This document shows positions 1,416 through 21,388 of a DNA stretch of 31,834 nucleotides, one piece after another (the first letter of the stretch is position 1; each line of letters starts with the position of its first letter). The DNA comes from a virus, in IMG/VR virus record IMGVR_UViG_3300021416_000075, positions 1 to 31,834 of that record. One strand, written 5' to 3'. The translations under genes were made by a program, and so were the position numbers. The notes beneath the pieces were generated by a model, which saw only the letters and a program-made list of their open reading frames with translations, did not search any database and was not told the DNA's origin.

Positions 1416-1604
1416 TTACGAGGTCTTAGCAACTTTTTTATCCCACATAGCCTCGGCCTTTGACTCAGCATTCGCGCCGGCCCACGGCACCCACCGGTCA
1501 GGCGCCCGTGCGATCATCGTCCCGTCGCCGTGCCCCATCTGCTGCGCGACGCTACCGAACCATTCAATGACCCTCAAACGCCAAACCGGTCGTTTTATGA
1601 TGCC
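1416..1604 (-). pseudogene. C-terminal remnant of a phage tyrosine integrase
   Basis: An open reading stretch of 62 codons with no plausible start, ending in TAA. Its translation contains VAQQMGHGDGTMIARAPDRW, which lines up with VAQQMGHTDWTMIARVYGRW of the intact integrase at 7707-8894. The box with the conserved GH is kept, but the catalytic tyrosine (Y360 in the intact protein) is a proline, so this piece could not recombine DNA. The N-terminal and central catalytic regions are absent. It marks a former integration event. The rest of the 1312-1680 gap shows nothing else recognisable. Confidence 0.8.
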
Positions 1605-1680: not shown

Positions 1681-2478
1681 GTGGTCGAAGGAACGGGTGA
1701 TGTGGAAACGCTCTATAGGTATAAGTATTTGCCGTTCAATGAGGGCAGCTTGAAAATGGTGACTGAGGGAACGCTAAAATTCACCTGCCCTCTGGAATTT
1801 AATGACCCGTTTGACTGCATGCCGGCCTATGATTTGGACAGCATCGACAACCTGCACCTGAGCAGACCTGACCTGATTCAGAGGGTTGCCGATTATCATG
1901 GTGTCTCAATTGAGGAGGCTCGTTCAATCGGTGTAACGAACGCCCGAAAAGGCGTTGTGTCAGGAGATTTCGCAAAAGGTCTAGTCTCAACGTTAGGGGT
2001 GTTTTCACTCAGTCGAGATCCAACCAATATCCTCATGTGGTCGCATTACGCTGATCACCACAAAGGGTTTGTGGTTGAGATGCGGATCGCGATGGATGCT
2101 CCAATGCACCTACTGGAGCGATTCATGCCGTTCCCCGTCGAGTATCGAGTGGAGAGGCCCGTAGTCGACTGGGCTTCGGGTTGTGACATCACACAGTACT
2201 TTTTGACTAAGAGCCCTGATTGGAGATATGAACAGGAAGAGCGCATGTTGACCACTTGGGAGGGGCCTGGAATACACGCTTACCCACGGGTACATTTTTT
2301 GTGGGCAGTAATCGCAGGGGGGAGAATGAGTGCCGAGAGCTATCACTCGCTCAAAGAAGCTGTTGATCAAGCGGGTCGTGAGATCGGTCGTCAAATTCCG
2401 CTGTATAGGGCGGAGTTGGCCAAAACGAAGTACCAGGTGCATGTCCCCGGCCACCGTTTCGTCGGAAGTCAGTCCTAG
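1681..2478 (+). CDS. DUF2971 domain protein
   Basis: A 265-aa soluble protein with the hallmarks of DUF2971: an N-terminal LYRYKYL stretch, the NDPFDC motif near residue 41, and the FSLSRDPTNILMWSHYADHH block followed by KGFVVEM. The biochemical function of the family is not established; members are often found in mobile and defence-rich regions. The start is GTG at 1681; a second GTG at 1702 is also possible, with AAGGA upstream of it. The gene lies 9 bp before the DUF6338-like membrane gene and shares a terminator with it and a micro-ORF, so the three probably form one operon. GC is visibly lower than in the flanking prophage. It is on the strand opposite to the integrase remnants on both sides. 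Confidence 0.8.
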   Translation: MVEGTGDVETLYRYKYLPFNEGSLKMVTEGTLKFTCPLEFNDPFDCMPAYDLDSIDNLHLSRPDLIQRVADYHGVSIEEARSIGVTNARKGVVSGDFAKGLVSTLGVFSLSRDPTNILMWSHYADHHKGFVVEMRIAMDAPMHLLERFMPFPVEYRVERPVVDWASGCDITQYFLTKSPDWRYEQEERMLTTWEGPGIHAYPRVHFLWAVIAGGRMSAESYHSLKEAVDQAGREIGRQIPLYRAELAKTKYQVHVPGHRFVGSQS

Positions 2479-2487
2479 GGGGAACAA

Positions 2488-3120
2488 GTGGAAAATCTAG
2501 CGAAACCTGAAAATTTTCTTTTTTTTATGGCATTCGTGGTACCTGGATTCGTGGCTATGAAGTCCTACTCGATGGTCATAGAGGCGAGTTTGGAGAAAAG
2601 CGCAGCTACGCTGTTGATTGAGTCAATCATCTATAGCGTGATGCTTTTCGTGCCCTTGAGTGCCGGCTATTCTTGGGCTGAAGGAACAATGAAAAGCGGA
2701 GAGCTGGTTGAAGGGGTGATGGCTTGGATGGCTTTAACGTTTCTCGTTCCCGCCGTCCTTGGTTATGGGCTTGTCCAGGCAAGGCTGCGGATGGCCGGTA
2801 AGGGCTGGGGAAGGCATCCAATCTCCAACGCTTGGGACTATATATTCTCGGAGAAGTCGCAAAGCAAAGACGGCGTGTTCTTGAGGGTTCGAACAGTGGA
2901 CGGGCGATGGTTGGGAGGTGCTTATATGGCTGGAAGCTTAGCTTCGGCGCAACGTTCTGAAAAGTCATTGTGTATCGCCAGAGCTTACGACTTTGACGAG
3001 AGTGGCCTTGTGAGGCGGGAGGTTCCCGTGAGTCGATCTGTGCTAGTCGAATCCAGCGCTATCAGCTCTATCGAGTTTTTTTCATACAATGACATTCCCT
3101 ACAGGAGAGCGGATGCATGA
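2488..3120 (+). CDS. DUF6338-like membrane protein
   Basis: A 210-aa protein with three predicted transmembrane segments in its first half (about residues 9-27, 42-62 and 76-98) and a soluble C-terminal domain (about 115-205) rich in short beta-strand-like stretches. This layout and the RHPISNAWDYIF segment fit the DUF6338 family, whose function is unknown. The start is GTG at 2488, preceded by a strong AGGGGGA ribosome site. Its stop overlaps the ATG of the next micro-ORF (ATGA), indicating translational coupling. Pairing a soluble DUF2971 protein with a membrane partner suggests a two-component cargo system, possibly defence; that role is inference. Confidence 0.7.
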   Translation: MENLAKPENFLFFMAFVVPGFVAMKSYSMVIEASLEKSAATLLIESIIYSVMLFVPLSAGYSWAEGTMKSGELVEGVMAWMALTFLVPAVLGYGLVQARLRMAGKGWGRHPISNAWDYIFSEKSQSKDGVFLRVRTVDGRWLGGAYMAGSLASAQRSEKSLCIARAYDFDESGLVRREVPVSRSVLVESSAISSIEFFSYNDIPYRRADA

Positions 3121-3294: not shown

Positions 3295-5098
3295 CTAAGC
3301 CAATCTAGGGTGCTTCCGTCGATGGCCTTGTACGCTCTCTATCAAAATATTGCCGAAACGGTCCGCAAAATCTACTTGATAGCTTGTGAGGGATTGGAGG
3401 GCTTTAGGCATCGGCAGAAGCAGTAAAGCGTTTAGTTTTTGCTGGATCGTAGCCCCTTCATCGTAGTGCTTGCCGGCGATTGTCTGGGGCAGATGGCCAG
3501 TGATTGCATCGATGATAGAGCGATCTAACGGTTCGCCATTGCGCCTCGCATTACTCAGATTTGTCTCTAGGGTGTGCCGGAATGAGTAGAGACTTTTGCC
3601 ATCGTTTGGTTCATGAACTCCGATTCGCACCAAGTAGCCTCTAGGTGCTTCGTTGAAAAATTTGCTGGCGCTTTTTGCCCAACCCTCTTTGTTGTGATCG
3701 GTTTTTCCTTCTCGTGGTGGAAGGTACGTTAGGCCATCACCAAAAGCTTTTTCTGTTTCGACTCCCGCTGACTCTCGACGGATTCCAGAAATCCAAGCTG
3801 AATCAGGCGCGGATGGATTGGAACTAATCGTGCCTCTCCAGTCTTCATTCTCTTAGCCTCGAACGTATTGGGTGGGTCTGGACAAAATTCAAAGCATGGA
3901 CAATTTTCAATCATCCGGGTATCAGCTGTATCGAGTTGAGCGATTTCCTTGTCCTCGCGCCAGTGAAGTAGCCGACCAGCGGCAGCCAGAGCCAAATTGG
4001 ATAGGCTTTAGTTTTGTCTTCTGGTAGTGCGCCAAGGTAAATGAAGCCGTCGAATATCGCATCTACATCATCAGCAGTGAATGCTCGGCCACCCCGTGTA
4101 CGGCGTGTGCTTCTCTTTTCCACCGGTTTGATCTTGAGGTCGGCCGTGCGGAGGGTAGTTAAGTCAAAAAAGCGAGCATGGGCTTGGATTTGCTTCATAG
4201 AGTTAATGAGGGAGCTCACACGTTCGTGGCCGGCCATCTCCTCGCGGTCCTCCGTTAGAATTTCGCTTAGAGGGGTAGGCGGGCTTATAGAGGCCATCGC
4301 CCCTGCTTTCATTACTCGGGCGGCATTGTAAGCAGCTTGCCAGTCATTTTTTGTTAATAACCGCACTGGTTTGTGCTGAGTGAGTACGGTCATCACTCGC
4401 GCCCTGCGTTCTCTTTCTTCCAGAGTACTCCCGTGGTTTGCTTGTCCGCCTTCCGATGAAAGATCGGCTCTGTCGCAATCCAACTGATGCTGCCAAACCT
4501 GGTATAGGGTCCAATCAGACATCAATGGGTCGTGCCTAGAGGCGCTATGAATATCGCGTTGCCCTCCTGCTCCCCGCGTTAATGCTAAATTTTTTAGGAC
4601 CAACTCATCTCCCAGTGTTGGCAAAACCATCCGCAGCTGGGTGGCTAGATACGGTTGGGAAAGCTCCAGCAATTGCTCAGCTAAAGGCTCCAGTTTCTCC
4701 GGAATACGACGCCCGTAGGCCCCCTGTTAGAAGACGTTCAACCTCCCTGCGACGCAGGCGTGCCTCAATTTCATCATTTGAGAGGATTGGCTCAGCAGAC
4801 TAATCCGGATCTTCGGGATCTGAGAAATCCGGAAACAATTCCATGAGTTCTTGCTAGTCCTGCTCAGAGATACCCAGGTCGTCACGCTCTACCACGCTCA
4901 TCACCCTATCAAAGGCTGCTCATACCGGGCAGCATACTGACGAGCGCGTTTTTGGGCCAAGCGGTAGCTATCAGTTTTCAACGTACGCCGCACCTCACGC
5001 TGCCTCTTGAGCAAAGCTCGAAGCGGGTGGGGGATAACCATGCGGAAATAGTATGTGCCGTGTCGGTTAAGCGTCAGATAGGAAGGGGCTGGTTTCAT
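3295..5098 (-). pseudogene. Degenerate large phage/island integrase (DUF6538-type N-terminus)
   Basis: Pieces of one tyrosine recombinase of about 590 residues can be followed on the minus strand. The N-terminus starts at ATG 5096-5098 (MKPAPSYLTLNRHGTYYFR, the DUF6538-like arm). It reads to a TGA at 4901-4903, and the 4673-4900 stretch has further in-frame TAGs (4854-4856 and 4800-4802). The middle resumes to 3911, holding the box I arginine in YFTGAR. A one-base frame change near 3947-3955 leads into the EIAQLDTADTRMIENC segment. A second, at a short T run at 3742-3745, leads to the C-terminus with SFRHT, ITGH and the catalytic tyrosine in GKHYDEG. The catalytic residues survive, but the frame is destroyed. 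It is the decayed integrase of an older element next to the tmRNA-type att site at 5211-5242. Confidence 0.85.
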
Positions 5099-5177
5099 GC
5101 TAGGCACCGAGTGATGCACCACAGGAATGTGACACGTCAGTGGCACACCGGCAAAAATGCAAGGTCCAGATAGCACA

Positions 5178-5198
5178 AAGCCCCATAAAATGGGGCTT
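5178..5198 (-). terminator. Hairpin terminator downstream of tmRNA 3'-end fragment
   Basis: Inverted repeat AAGCCCCA/TGGGGCTT (5178-5185 and 5191-5198) with a 5-nt loop. On the minus strand it begins 12 bases after the CCA end of the tmRNA-like fragment and is followed by TTGTG, as expected of the old ssrA terminator left in place. Confidence 0.6.
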
Positions 5199-5210
5199 GT
5201 GTTAGGAAGG

Positions 5211-5242
5211 TGGTGGAGCCGGGGGGATTTGAACCCGCGTCC
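5211..5242 (-). other. tmRNA (ssrA) 3'-end fragment, prophage attachment site
   Basis: Read on the minus strand, these 32 bases give the T-arm and acceptor end of tmRNA: GGACGCGGGTTCAAATCC, then the CCCCCGGCTCCACCA tail. The base sequence upstream on that strand does not continue into the tmRNA body, so it is a 3' fragment and not the gene. Integrases of many islands and prophages use the 3' end of ssrA and leave such a duplicate at the distal boundary. The fragment separates the prophage (higher coordinates) from the older integrase pseudogene (lower coordinates). The intact ssrA and second att copy should lie beyond the right edge. The identity as tmRNA is from memory of Pseudomonas ssrA. 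Confidence 0.8.
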
Positions 5243-5289
5243 AATCCCCGGATTTCGGGGCTAGGAGCTTTAAGGCTGTCATAACGCTG

Positions 5290-7608
5290 TCATTTCGACG
5301 AACTCAATGCCGCGGCCGGAGCATACGTCTGCTTGTCACTAGCTGATTTAGTCTTCAATTGCTCCGTGATCGGTACATAATAGAGCTTATTGATTATCTC
5401 GCGAGCACTTCCCGATGACCTAATCTGCTTAGCTAGTCGTTTGTTGAACTTTGACAAGACTAGTGATTCTGTGCCTTCTTGGGACTCATGTCTGATTGCA
5501 AACTTAATGTACATAGGAATCGAGTCTTCGTACTGCTCAAGCATGCCGTCGAAAGCAGTCTCTTCTCCTAGCTCCAAGCAGGTATTCCTCAAAAGAAAGA
5601 GTTGAAGAAAGTCCTCTTCGCTCGGGTTGGTCGTATATGTTATCTGTAGAGCTGCATCACTCAAAGCCTCTTTAAAGTAGTCATACCTGAAACTGTCATT
5701 CAAGCATTTCGTTATCAAGTATAGAGTATGCATCTTGGTAAGTTTTGACAGAGTGCTCGTGATCTTTCCGCTAAATATTTCGCTCAAATATCTTGCGGCA
5801 TCTGCATAGGACTTAGCAACGCCTTGTTGAATGAAGTTGTATGGAGTTAAATACGCAGCTAGAAGATAGTTACCATTATTGACAATTCTCATCAGTCTAG
5901 GCAGTTCATTTACGATGTCAATTTTATTTATGGCGTCTACCAGCTCAGGACAATCTCTCTTTAGGCCCACGAAGAAGAAATAAGGTGTGCTCCAGTACGC
6001 ATGGTAGATTTTCTCATCAATGACCGCAGTGTTGTACTTCGCCATGCTCTTTGCGTAGAAAAATTCGGCAAACGTGCGGTGCTTAAACTGGAAACAGTTT
6101 GTTCGCTCGTTGATGATTGCTATTTCTTTTTTTGAAACGAATTTTTCGAACAAGTCACTTGCGTTCAACTTGAGGTTTCGAGTACGAATATAATCTTGAA
6201 AAAAACCTTTTGCTTCGTCTAGTGATATTTGTTGCAAATTATGATCAATGACATATCTTGCGATTTCAATAGCCGAGTTTTCAATAACTTCGTATTCTTT
6301 TTGAGATTGTAATCCCTTACTGATATCCCATCTGCCGAGTACTAGCTCCATATATTTCGCGTACAGCTCGGTCATCGTCGATGGTATTTCCTTAGCATCC
6401 TCATTTAGGAGTTTGGCTAGAAGGATAGCCGCAATGGGGGTTCTAGGGAGAACCTTGAACAGGCTGGAGTTTCGTAGGTCATTCTGGATACGAGTTTTTA
6501 ATGATGCACCTTGACAGACCTTTTCAATCAGCGTGATAACTTGCCCAAGGGTAAATGGTAAAATACGATAGCGTGAGAACTGTTTCGAAAGTGCTGACGA
6601 TTCTTCAGGATCGTCAATACCGCGGCTAACGCAGACAAGCTTTACACCGAGCTCACGCGCTTTCTGCGCTGCAGATGTCAAATAATCAATACGGTCTTTA
6701 CTTTCCAAATCAATTTCGTCGATGGCATCGATGGCAACGATGAAGTCATGTTCTTCGCTGGTTACCTTTGCTTGGTCGCAAACCTCTGCAATTACCCGCT
6801 CTATCGACCGGCCATATACATTGATAAACTCGTTAAATGTGATAAGCACGGGTATGCAGTTATCTATTCGGATAGCGTCTTCAGACGCCATGTCTTCCAT
6901 TACCTTATTTATCAGGCTGGACTTTCCTGTACCCATTGATCCTTCAATCAGCAGGCAGGACTCTGAATCCATAACTGCGCTGATTGTAAAGGTTTCTTGC
7001 TTGGAATTGTGTTTCTTGGAGTATTTGTTAGATATTTTTCCTAGACGCTGCTCAATGTAGTACTTGGTTCCATCGATGAGTGAGGAATTTTTTATTGAGG
7101 TAGCTATCTGCGTATGTATCGAGTTAACGTAATCGGCAAGATGTTTGTTCGTGTTTGCCCAATAATCAGGATAATATTTGTCGATTAATTTTACTACCTT
7201 ATCCTGATCGATAAACTTAATGTTCTGAGTTTTGTAGTTGTTGTTTATTTTTATTTGGGCGTTGTTTGTTATGTTTTCGTTGGTTATGATCCAGATCTCA
7301 TTAATATTGATCGTGCTCTTGCCGCCGTGAAAGTGCCTTGGAATAGAGCATTCGTCTATCTGTCTTTCAATTTCACTATGGTTTTGAAGGATTTTTCCAA
7401 CCTTAACGATTACACCGATATAGGTTTTTTCATCTAGTATCGTATCGTTTTTTTCCAAAACGAAGTCTGCGCCCATTTCGTGCGGACCTTGCTTGTACTC
7501 AAGGTTTGAGATGTCAGGCAAGTTGGTGAACAAAGTCCTCAAAACGGGATGAAAATCGTTGACCTCATGCTTTAGTGCACGGATTTTGTCTAGTTTGAAC
7601 TGCTCCAT
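5290..7608 (-). CDS. Nuclease-like / NACHT-type STAND NTPase (putative antiphage protein)
   Basis: A protein of 772 aa from ATG 7606-7608, which has AGGGAT upstream. An earlier ATG at 7710 overlaps the integrase stop as ATGA and would add 34 unlikely-looking residues. The N-terminus (about 1-150) resembles a restriction-endonuclease fold, with GAD around Asp48 and GVIVK ending at Lys69, though the usual Glu/Gln two residues before the Lys is replaced. A P-loop NTPase follows: Walker A GSMGTGKSS (about 223-231), Walker B IVAIDAIDEID (about 290-300), and a VSRG sensor near 327-330, as in NACHT/STAND proteins. The C-terminal 400 residues are helical with no recognised repeats and could be the sensor. 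It lies between the phage integrase and att, and is much richer in A+T than the phage, so it looks like recently acquired cargo. An antiphage role is inferred from similarity to Avs/bNACHT architectures. Confidence 0.75.
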   Translation of the reverse strand: MEQFKLDKIRALKHEVNDFHPVLRTLFTNLPDISNLEYKQGPHEMGADFVLEKNDTILDEKTYIGVIVKVGKILQNHSEIERQIDECSIPRHFHGGKSTININEIWIITNENITNNAQIKINNNYKTQNIKFIDQDKVVKLIDKYYPDYWANTNKHLADYVNSIHTQIATSIKNSSLIDGTKYYIEQRLGKISNKYSKKHNSKQETFTISAVMDSESCLLIEGSMGTGKSSLINKVMEDMASEDAIRIDNCIPVLITFNEFINVYGRSIERVIAEVCDQAKVTSEEHDFIVAIDAIDEIDLESKDRIDYLTSAAQKARELGVKLVCVSRGIDDPEESSALSKQFSRYRILPFTLGQVITLIEKVCQGASLKTRIQNDLRNSSLFKVLPRTPIAAILLAKLLNEDAKEIPSTMTELYAKYMELVLGRWDISKGLQSQKEYEVIENSAIEIARYVIDHNLQQISLDEAKGFFQDYIRTRNLKLNASDLFEKFVSKKEIAIINERTNCFQFKHRTFAEFFYAKSMAKYNTAVIDEKIYHAYWSTPYFFFVGLKRDCPELVDAINKIDIVNELPRLMRIVNNGNYLLAAYLTPYNFIQQGVAKSYADAARYLSEIFSGKITSTLSKLTKMHTLYLITKCLNDSFRYDYFKEALSDAALQITYTTNPSEEDFLQLFLLRNTCLELGEETAFDGMLEQYEDSIPMYIKFAIRHESQEGTESLVLSKFNKRLAKQIRSSGSAREIINKLYYVPITEQLKTKSASDKQTYAPAAALSSSK

Positions 7609-7706
7609 ACGAGATCCCTTCGTTGACTGCTGGCATACGGCGCGAGAAGGCGCGTGTGATCTCCGCATCATCATGAATCGCAGTCTCCATGGCAAGAGTG
7701 ATGATG

Positions 7707-8894
7707 TCATTTTGGTGTCTTCACAAGATGATCTGCTGGACTATCTGGAGCAAACCTAAACGCCCGCTCCGCTCGGCCGCCTGCATCGTCATCAGACGAA
7801 GGCATCCATCTGCCGTACACTCGGGCAATCATAGTCCAGTCTGTGTGTCCCATCTGCTGGGCTACCCACATCGGATGCTCCCCAGATGAAAGCATCATCG
7901 AGGCGTAGGTGTGCCGCGTCTGGTAAGGGCGCCGGTAACGAACGCCTGCCTTCTTCACCGCATGTGCCCACATTGTCTTCCTGATCGGCCCGTCACCGGC
8001 CCAGCGCTCGAGCGTGCGTGGGTTCTGGAATACCTCACTCCCGGACAGATAGGTGTGATCCTTTTGCGCCTTCAGTGCGGCCAAGGCTGGTCCCAGTAGC
8101 TTCACGGCTCGCCGACCGGCTGCCGTCTTGGGTATCTCCGCAATTCCTTTCGACGCCTGGGTCATTGCTCGGGTGATCATCACCTCGCCGCGAATCCAAT
8201 CCACATCACCCCAGTCCAGCGCTACCAATTCGCTCGTGCGCAACCCTGTCCACAGCGCGAACTGAATCAGATTCGCTGCCTGTCCGCTCGCAGCCGCGAT
8301 GATCGCGCGCTGCTCTTCCGTGGTGAACGGGTCAACGTCGTCATCATCTGTTGGCGCGGCCTTCCGCTTGTAGGTCCATCCCGCCATCGGGTTGTTCTCG
8401 ATCAACTCCTCGTCGATGGCCTCCGTCATCGCTGAACGCAAGCAGCTCTGAATGTTGCTCAGCGTCTTATTGCCGATCTCCAGAGTGTCGAGCCAGTCCT
8501 TGATCATCTTGCGCTTCAGATCGACCATCATGTGCGTGCCCAGCGCGGGCACAAGCCGATGCTCGACCAGTTTGCGATAGCCGTCGTAGGTGCTGCTGGA
8601 AAGGTGCTTCTTCTTCGACGCGAGCCACCTGGTTAGGAATCCGGCGACGGTTTCATGCGAGGCCTCGGGTGCGAACTTCGCCGCCCTGGCCGAGCCAGGG
8701 AAGGTGACGGAGTAATCGAACGTCCCGATCGAAATCGCGTGCTCGATCGCCGCCTTGTGCTGCTCGGCCTTCTTCAGATTAGTGGCGGTGGGCTTGAGCG
8801 TGATGCGCTCGCGGCACCGGACGCCCCGATACATGAACGTGATTTCGATGCTCGAATCGGAGATCGCCCGAACTCCCCGCCCGTCTCTACCCAT
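7707..8894 (-). CDS. int: Phage tyrosine integrase
   Basis: A 395-aa site-specific recombinase. The first 70 residues form an arm-type DNA-binding domain (GVRCRERITLKPT), residues 80-170 the SAM-like core-binding domain, and 185-385 the catalytic domain. The visible catalytic set is R219 (TGLRTSEL), R327 (YQTRHTYAS, with Tyr replacing the usual first His), H350 (QQMGH) and Y360 (IARVYGRW). It should carry out integration and, with the excisionase, excision at the tmRNA 3' end. The gene overlaps the excisionase ORF by about 120 bp, is the second-to-last gene of the leftward operon and is intact. The tmRNA site is separated from it by the NACHT cargo gene. Confidence 0.92.
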   Translation of the reverse strand: MGRDGRGVRAISDSSIEITFMYRGVRCRERITLKPTATNLKKAEQHKAAIEHAISIGTFDYSVTFPGSARAAKFAPEASHETVAGFLTRWLASKKKHLSSSTYDGYRKLVEHRLVPALGTHMMVDLKRKMIKDWLDTLEIGNKTLSNIQSCLRSAMTEAIDEELIENNPMAGWTYKRKAAPTDDDDVDPFTTEEQRAIIAAASGQAANLIQFALWTGLRTSELVALDWGDVDWIRGEVMITRAMTQASKGIAEIPKTAAGRRAVKLLGPALAALKAQKDHTYLSGSEVFQNPRTLERWAGDGPIRKTMWAHAVKKAGVRYRRPYQTRHTYASMMLSSGEHPMWVAQQMGHTDWTMIARVYGRWMPSSDDDAGGRAERAFRFAPDSPADHLVKTPK

Positions 8895-9049
8895 GATTCA
8901 TATCCCTGTGTGTCTATCAGCGTCCGGCCGTCCGGAGCCCTGAACCAGATTTCGCCCAGCCGCCAAATTCCATCACGGATCTTCGAGCGGATAGCGTCCT
9001 CGCTGTAGCCAGACTCGCTGGCGAATTTCCTGATGGTCATGTAGCGCAT
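8774..9049 (-). CDS. xis: Excisionase-like small DNA-binding protein
   Basis: A 91-aa basic protein whose N-terminal half (TIRKFASESGYSEDAIRSKI, then IWRLGEIWFRAPDGR) is the winged-helix pattern seen in Pseudomonas phage excisionases; the GYESWVE segment ends the conserved part. It would bend att DNA and steer the integrase towards excision. The start at 9049 has AGGAG nine bases upstream. The C-terminal 40 residues overlap the integrase start in another frame and are low-complexity, so the functional domain is likely residues 1-55. Adjacency to int supports the assignment. Confidence 0.75.
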   Translation of the reverse strand: MRYMTIRKFASESGYSEDAIRSKIRDGIWRLGEIWFRAPDGRTLIDTQGYESWVETGGEFGRSPIRASKSRSCIGASGAASASRSSPPPLI

Positions 9050-21212: not shown

Positions 21213-21388
21213 TATGCTTGCCATGCAGTGGTACGCCATAGCCAGGGTGGGCCTTCGGGCAGGGCCTGGACGCGGTAAAGCCGGATAGTCACGCGTTGCT
21301 AAAGAACACCGGCAGTCAAAGAGCCTTGATCCTCAATGTGTGCAGGAGGCGGCTTTGACGGACTGATGGAGAGACATCGCCAAATTCG

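Follow-up and report, generated by a model that had tools for sequence, protein, structure and literature searches.

The minus-strand gene at nt 5290–7608 of the viral DNA analysed here (the window, 31,834 nucleotides) very probably encodes a diverged clade-6-type bNACHT defence protein, the cargo of a temperate phage in the slot between its integrase and the ssrA attachment site. The reading frame is intact with 772 codons (7608–5290), and the protein is a bacterial relative of the human NLR immune sensors. The features concerned, all on the minus strand, are:

5290–7608, bNACHT gene, 772 aa, with PD-(D/E)xK-like nuclease, NACHT/STAND and NCH1
7159–7608, N-terminal restriction-endonuclease-fold effector, aa 1–150 (AlphaFold topology, Foldseek, alignment)
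6553–6984, NACHT nucleotide-binding core, aa 209–352 (Pfam, alignment, Foldseek)
6034–6552, NACHT helical/winged-helix part, aa 353–525, containing FKHRTFAEFFYA (alignment, domain identities)
5362–5871, NCH1 C-terminal helical domain, aa 580–749, presumed sensor (PF22728, E 4e-39)
5275–5294, conserved att-arm repeat AATGACAGC...ATGACAGC, whose first TGA is the bNACHT stop codon
5211–5299, tmRNA (ssrA) 3′-end fragment/att site (Rfam tmRNA, E 6.7e-6)
7707–8894, tyrosine integrase of the prophage, upstream of the bNACHT gene (phrog_1, E 1e-63)
8774–9049, excisionase (phrog_9668, E 1e-33)

The gene and its position

The ATG at nt 7608 coincides with the starts of the relatives in the alignment, while the mechanically called reading frame extends back to nt 7710. 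The gene has a G+C content of 41.3%, against 59.2% for nt 7707–31834 (the integrase onwards), and no other 2.3-kb stretch in the window is as poor in G+C. The tmRNA fragment includes an exact T-arm/acceptor match at nt 5211–5236, overlaps the 3′ end of the bNACHT coding sequence and is common to the att sites of related phages up to nt 5294. Since this tmRNA 3′ end lies downstream of the bNACHT gene, the attachment site of the prophage is ssrA, and the gene is located between the integrase (nt 8894–7707) and att (nt 5299–5211), as the original prediction had placed it. The C-terminal tail, residues 756–772, is modelled with low confidence, and its coding sequence enters the att site. A reading of this tail as a tmRNA tag was dropped after inspection by eye, which showed no likeness to the tag.

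At the integrase region there is a 75% match to Pseudomonas phage Hali, and at the ssrA end there are matches to several P. aeruginosa phages. Judged by likeness only, the probable host is Pseudomonas.

Relatives and clade

Tblastn identified a P. putida plasmid protein with 42% identity and an Enterobacter kobei plasmid protein with 38% identity. Single-sequence scans of viral and genome contigs with the window protein gave no match, and neither did phage records and E. coli DNA at the "distant" sensitivity; an alignment including the two plasmid relatives was needed to reach prophage copies and the E. coli chromosome. Sampling of 274 genomes from the same class as the E. coli genome and of 398 from the same phylum yielded almost no further relatives.

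The E. coli copy (L021, nt 6001–8259) is annotated WP_001702659.1, which is the accession given for bNACHT25 (PMC12169576), and the L019 copy is a 100% match to the bNACHT25 gene. Over almost its full length the window protein displays 37–39% identity to bNACHT25, which resides in an E. coli prophage. The E. kobei gene adjoins vapC and vapB (WP_057688291 and WP_057688290), accessions consecutive with that of bNACHT32 (WP_057688292), and on this ground is probably an allele of bNACHT32. Both bNACHT25 and bNACHT32 belong to clade 6, which combines NCH1 with PD-(D/E)XK (PMC12169576).

In our tree, which sets the NCH1 group against the Malaciobacter, L121 and Deinococcus proteins and is not the original multi-clade NACHT tree, the window protein, the P. 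putida plasmid protein, L015 and the bNACHT25 group are joined with support of 97/99. The window protein is sister to the P. putida plasmid protein and falls in another sub-branch than bNACHT25.

The bNACHT25 copies in L019 and L021 lie in a Rac-like prophage segment, with ydaE, kilR, sieB, ydaT and ydaV upstream. Of 5426 complete E. coli genomes, 18 contain copies with at least 95% identity, and some copies are split or partial (L023, H23). Another bNACHT relative (L010, nt 3513–8772) is found among phage structural genes, beside resolvase-like and tail-fibre-assembly-like genes, a position reminiscent of the cargo site in the P2 tail region.

The NACHT module and the NCH1 domain

The Walker A motif GSMGTGKSS (about residues 221–230) and the Walker B motif IVAIDAIDE (about residues 290–298) align with those of the relatives. 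Pfam NPHP3_N scores above its cut-off (31.6 versus 24.8 bits) and Pfam NACHT (PF05729) below (18.6 versus 26.7). The full-length model is of moderate quality (pLDDT 74, pTM 0.47), and the arrangement of domains relative to one another is unreadable from it. Its top Foldseek matches in the PDB are NOD2 and NLRP3, with NLRC4 lower. The aligned motifs, the NPHP3_N score and these structural matches agree with the P-loop NACHT module that had been predicted.

The helical end had been described as lacking clear repeats and as a possible new type of sensor. The new sensor type is not supported: residues 580–749 match Pfam NCH1 (PF22728) with 134.5 bits against a cut-off of 27 (E 4e-39), and bNACHT25 carries NCH1 in the same register (E 2e-38). 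PADLOC and NCBIfam offered no useful name for the protein and PHROGs none, the only PADLOC matches being mad8 (P-loop region, E 3e-4) and PDC-M49B (E 0.02).

The trigger of bNACHT25 is indirect and broad, and requires the host DnaJ (PMC12169576). Whether the window protein, with the same architecture and nuclease, responds to a different trigger than chaperone disturbance linked to DnaJ, such as a phage protein that it binds directly, is close to an even question, leaning slightly towards the published trigger. With the L019 copy as reference, identity to bNACHT25 is 56% in the effector, 33% in NCH1 and 23% in the NACHT core, so that among the folded parts conservation is lowest in NCH1 and the NACHT core, and the host lineage also differs from that of bNACHT25. 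However, NCH1 is still clearly homologous, and a trigger of the indirect and broad kind needs no sequence-specific ligand binding. An overall identity of 37–39% leaves room for another trigger.

The N-terminal nuclease domain

The AlphaFold model of the effector domain (pLDDT 84, pTM 0.81) exhibits the restriction-endonuclease core order, with strands at residues 33–38, 49–55 and 60–69, a helix at 78–87, a strand at 104–109, and a further helix and strand. Foldseek ranks MspJI and AspBHI first and FokI lower. The Mrr_cat match is weak, and no sequence-level match exceeds a curated cut-off. Structure prediction therefore recovers the nuclease fold as well as the NACHT fold, as had been expected from the original reading.

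The residues of note are Asp48, Lys69, Glu79, Glu81 and Gln83. Asp48 aligns without gaps with Asp48 of bNACHT25, and the strand carrying Lys69 reads GVIVK in the window protein, GVICK in bNACHT25 and GVVCK in the E. kobei protein. The canonical Glu/Gln two residues before the lysine is indeed absent, Ile67 being in its place. Ile or Val occupies this position in nine of ten proteins, the window protein included, and Gln only in the Deinococcus protein. Because bNACHT25 departs from the canonical motif too, Glu/Gln at this position does not define the bNACHT group.

The isoleucine raises the question of whether catalysis was lost with the Glu/Gln, leaving the N-terminal domain as a DNA-binding or scaffolding part. 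We consider this very unlikely, since Ile in bNACHT25 and Val in the bNACHT32-like E. kobei protein stand at the same position, and DNA degradation that depends on D48 has been reported for bNACHT25 and bNACHT32, with D48A abolishing both defence and DNA degradation on MS2 infection (PMC12169576). The effector is also the best conserved region of the protein, as would be expected of a working enzyme. The earlier suggestion that the effector activity may be altered is thus weakened: bNACHT25 cuts DNA with the same motif, and so the missing Glu/Gln gives no support to altered activity.

All ten proteins have an acidic Glu or Asp at residue 79, eight have Glu at residue 81, and Gln83 is invariant. 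We tentatively suggest that in the whole NCH1-bNACHT clade, with the active bNACHT25 and bNACHT32 among its members, the third ligand may have shifted from two residues before the lysine to the next helix (Glu/Asp79 or Glu81). Asp48 and Lys69 would then stay in place, perhaps with the invariant Gln83 beside the moved acid. The Malaciobacter protein has Val67 but Thr81, which weakens Glu81 alone as the moved acid, and residue 79 is acidic even in the Deinococcus protein with Gln67 and is hence not diagnostic; the covariation of residue 67 with residues 79 and 81 covers ten proteins only. A permuted PD...K...D/E site is known from the CCGG-family restriction enzymes (PMC6344858), and the shifted site might be an independent parallel to that of Cfr10I-type enzymes.

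The cargo slot between integrase and att

In IMG/VR, the integrase has relatives at 80 loci, with up to 95% identity. The bNACHT gene was found in none of the 80 by blastn or tblastn, with some of these loci ending before att, so that in them the slot is seen only in part. Nucleotide similarity to the relatives runs through int to about nt 7768–7801 and resumes at nt 5294 in att; hence about 2.5 kb has been replaced, the final codons of int included.

The int–att interval of the relatives harbors a bSEFIR protein, DarTG, a GmrSD-like HEC-06 protein, OLD/AriA-like ATPases, a RelA/SpoT-domain protein (PDC-S33, in five loci), PDC-M18A (in three), a SocA-like antitoxin and a zeta toxin. The window has the same layout of int, variable cargo and tmRNA 3′ end. 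The prediction of an AT-rich swap-in defence cargo at the att end, and not a core gene of these phages, is upheld by the absence of the gene from the related loci and by the other defence genes in the slot. That it is instead an ordinary phage gene for lysogeny or integration control is most improbable: it follows int at a distance of 98 bp in the same orientation and no convincing promoter of its own was found, but it is missing from all 80 related loci, its base composition is foreign to the phage, its relatives occur on plasmids and in unrelated phages, and defence genes occupy the same slot in the relatives.

The conserved repeat at the att end, AATGACAGC...ATGxCAGC, begins where the cargo ends. 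Among 25 intervals with a forward reading frame, the last cargo stop is at most 10 bases from the repeat in 18, and the TGA of the repeat is itself the cargo stop codon in nine, the window included. Cargo stops at or inside the att-arm repeat, seen in many of the related phages (window nt 5275–5294; att ends of L027–L082), mark a sharp boundary between cargo and att. The slots of L026–L105, taken from the integrase stop to the tmRNA T-arm, hold unnamed genes as well, for instance in L050, L051, L061, L082 and L085.

A core defence hotspot flanked by ssrA, cDHS2, has been described in P. aeruginosa (PMC10250203). A description of the int–ssrA att slot was not found in the literature searched, which is weak evidence of absence.

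Other features in the window

Just beyond the att site, nt 3301–5110 (minus strand) contain a frame-broken second integrase-like gene, the pieces of which are 61–70% identical to a 618-codon frame in L032. It suggests that elements are stacked at ssrA. A short remnant of an integrase C-terminus (VAQQMGHGDGTMIAR) is located at nt 1485–1550 (minus strand), with 73% identity over 22 aa to the intact integrase. Between the integrase remnants, at nt 1681–3120 (plus strand), are neighbouring DUF2971 and DUF6338 genes, a possible cargo of an older element. A Proteo-phage-1 RNA, a small structured phage RNA (Rfam RF03044, E 1e-11), is found at nt 21236–21317 (plus strand).

Proposed mechanism and comparison with known systems

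The defence function, DNA degradation, trigger and switching of the window protein are proposed by homology with bNACHT25 and bNACHT32. Before infection of the lysogen, the protein would be kept inactive by its NACHT module, in a nucleotide-bound state. The C-terminal NCH1 would register infection, which in bNACHT25 happens indirectly via the host chaperone DnaJ, and the NACHT protein would then switch state and oligomerise. The oligomer would activate the N-terminal PD-(D/E)xK-fold nuclease, using Asp48, Lys69 and possibly an acidic residue that has moved. The activated nuclease would degrade DNA, sacrificing the cell but halting phage growth, thereby protecting the lysogen population and hence the prophage.

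The window protein shares with bNACHT25 and bNACHT32 the N-terminal Asp48 nuclease of PD-(D/E)xK fold, the central NACHT and the C-terminal NCH1, the hydrophobic-x-Lys in place of E/QxK (read directly for bNACHT25), and carriage on mobile elements. It differs in being 37–39% identical, in its position at the integrase–ssrA att slot and in the low-confidence tail that runs into the att site. With the Mrr-like and MspJI-type nucleases (PD-(D/E)xK, QxK), its best Foldseek matches, the effector has in common the alpha-beta-beta-beta-alpha-beta core, with Asp starting strand 2 and Lys ending strand 3; unlike them, it lacks Glu/Gln two residues before the lysine and is fused to a NACHT regulator. 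Avs (AVAST) proteins are STAND NTPases, some types of which have an N-terminal nuclease. The PADLOC Avs profiles did not match the window protein, which has NCH1 and not a long repeat sensor.

The CCGG-family enzymes Cfr10I and NgoMIV (PMC6344858) resemble it in that an acidic residue possibly comes from after the Lys strand, an analogy of active-site layout only, with no relationship claimed. As in cDHS2 of P. aeruginosa (PMC10250203), defence genes are gathered at ssrA, whereas the slot described here belongs to the prophage itself, with int on one side and the att arm on the other, and recurs in many related phages.

Significance

The protein is of a mostly known kind, and it extends the bNACHT25/32 type to a probable Pseudomonas prophage. 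As a diverged relative, it lets one ask which surfaces of NCH1 matter in chaperone-linked sensing. Since the odd motif occurs in enzymes of demonstrated activity, a reading of the nuclease as degenerate is corrected. Two points are modestly new: the variant active site common to the family, in which an acid may have moved, and the defence slot, where the stop codon of the cargo gene often lies inside the att-arm repeat. The int–ssrA att slot holds many known and candidate defence genes, and the unnamed genes in it are therefore worth screening.
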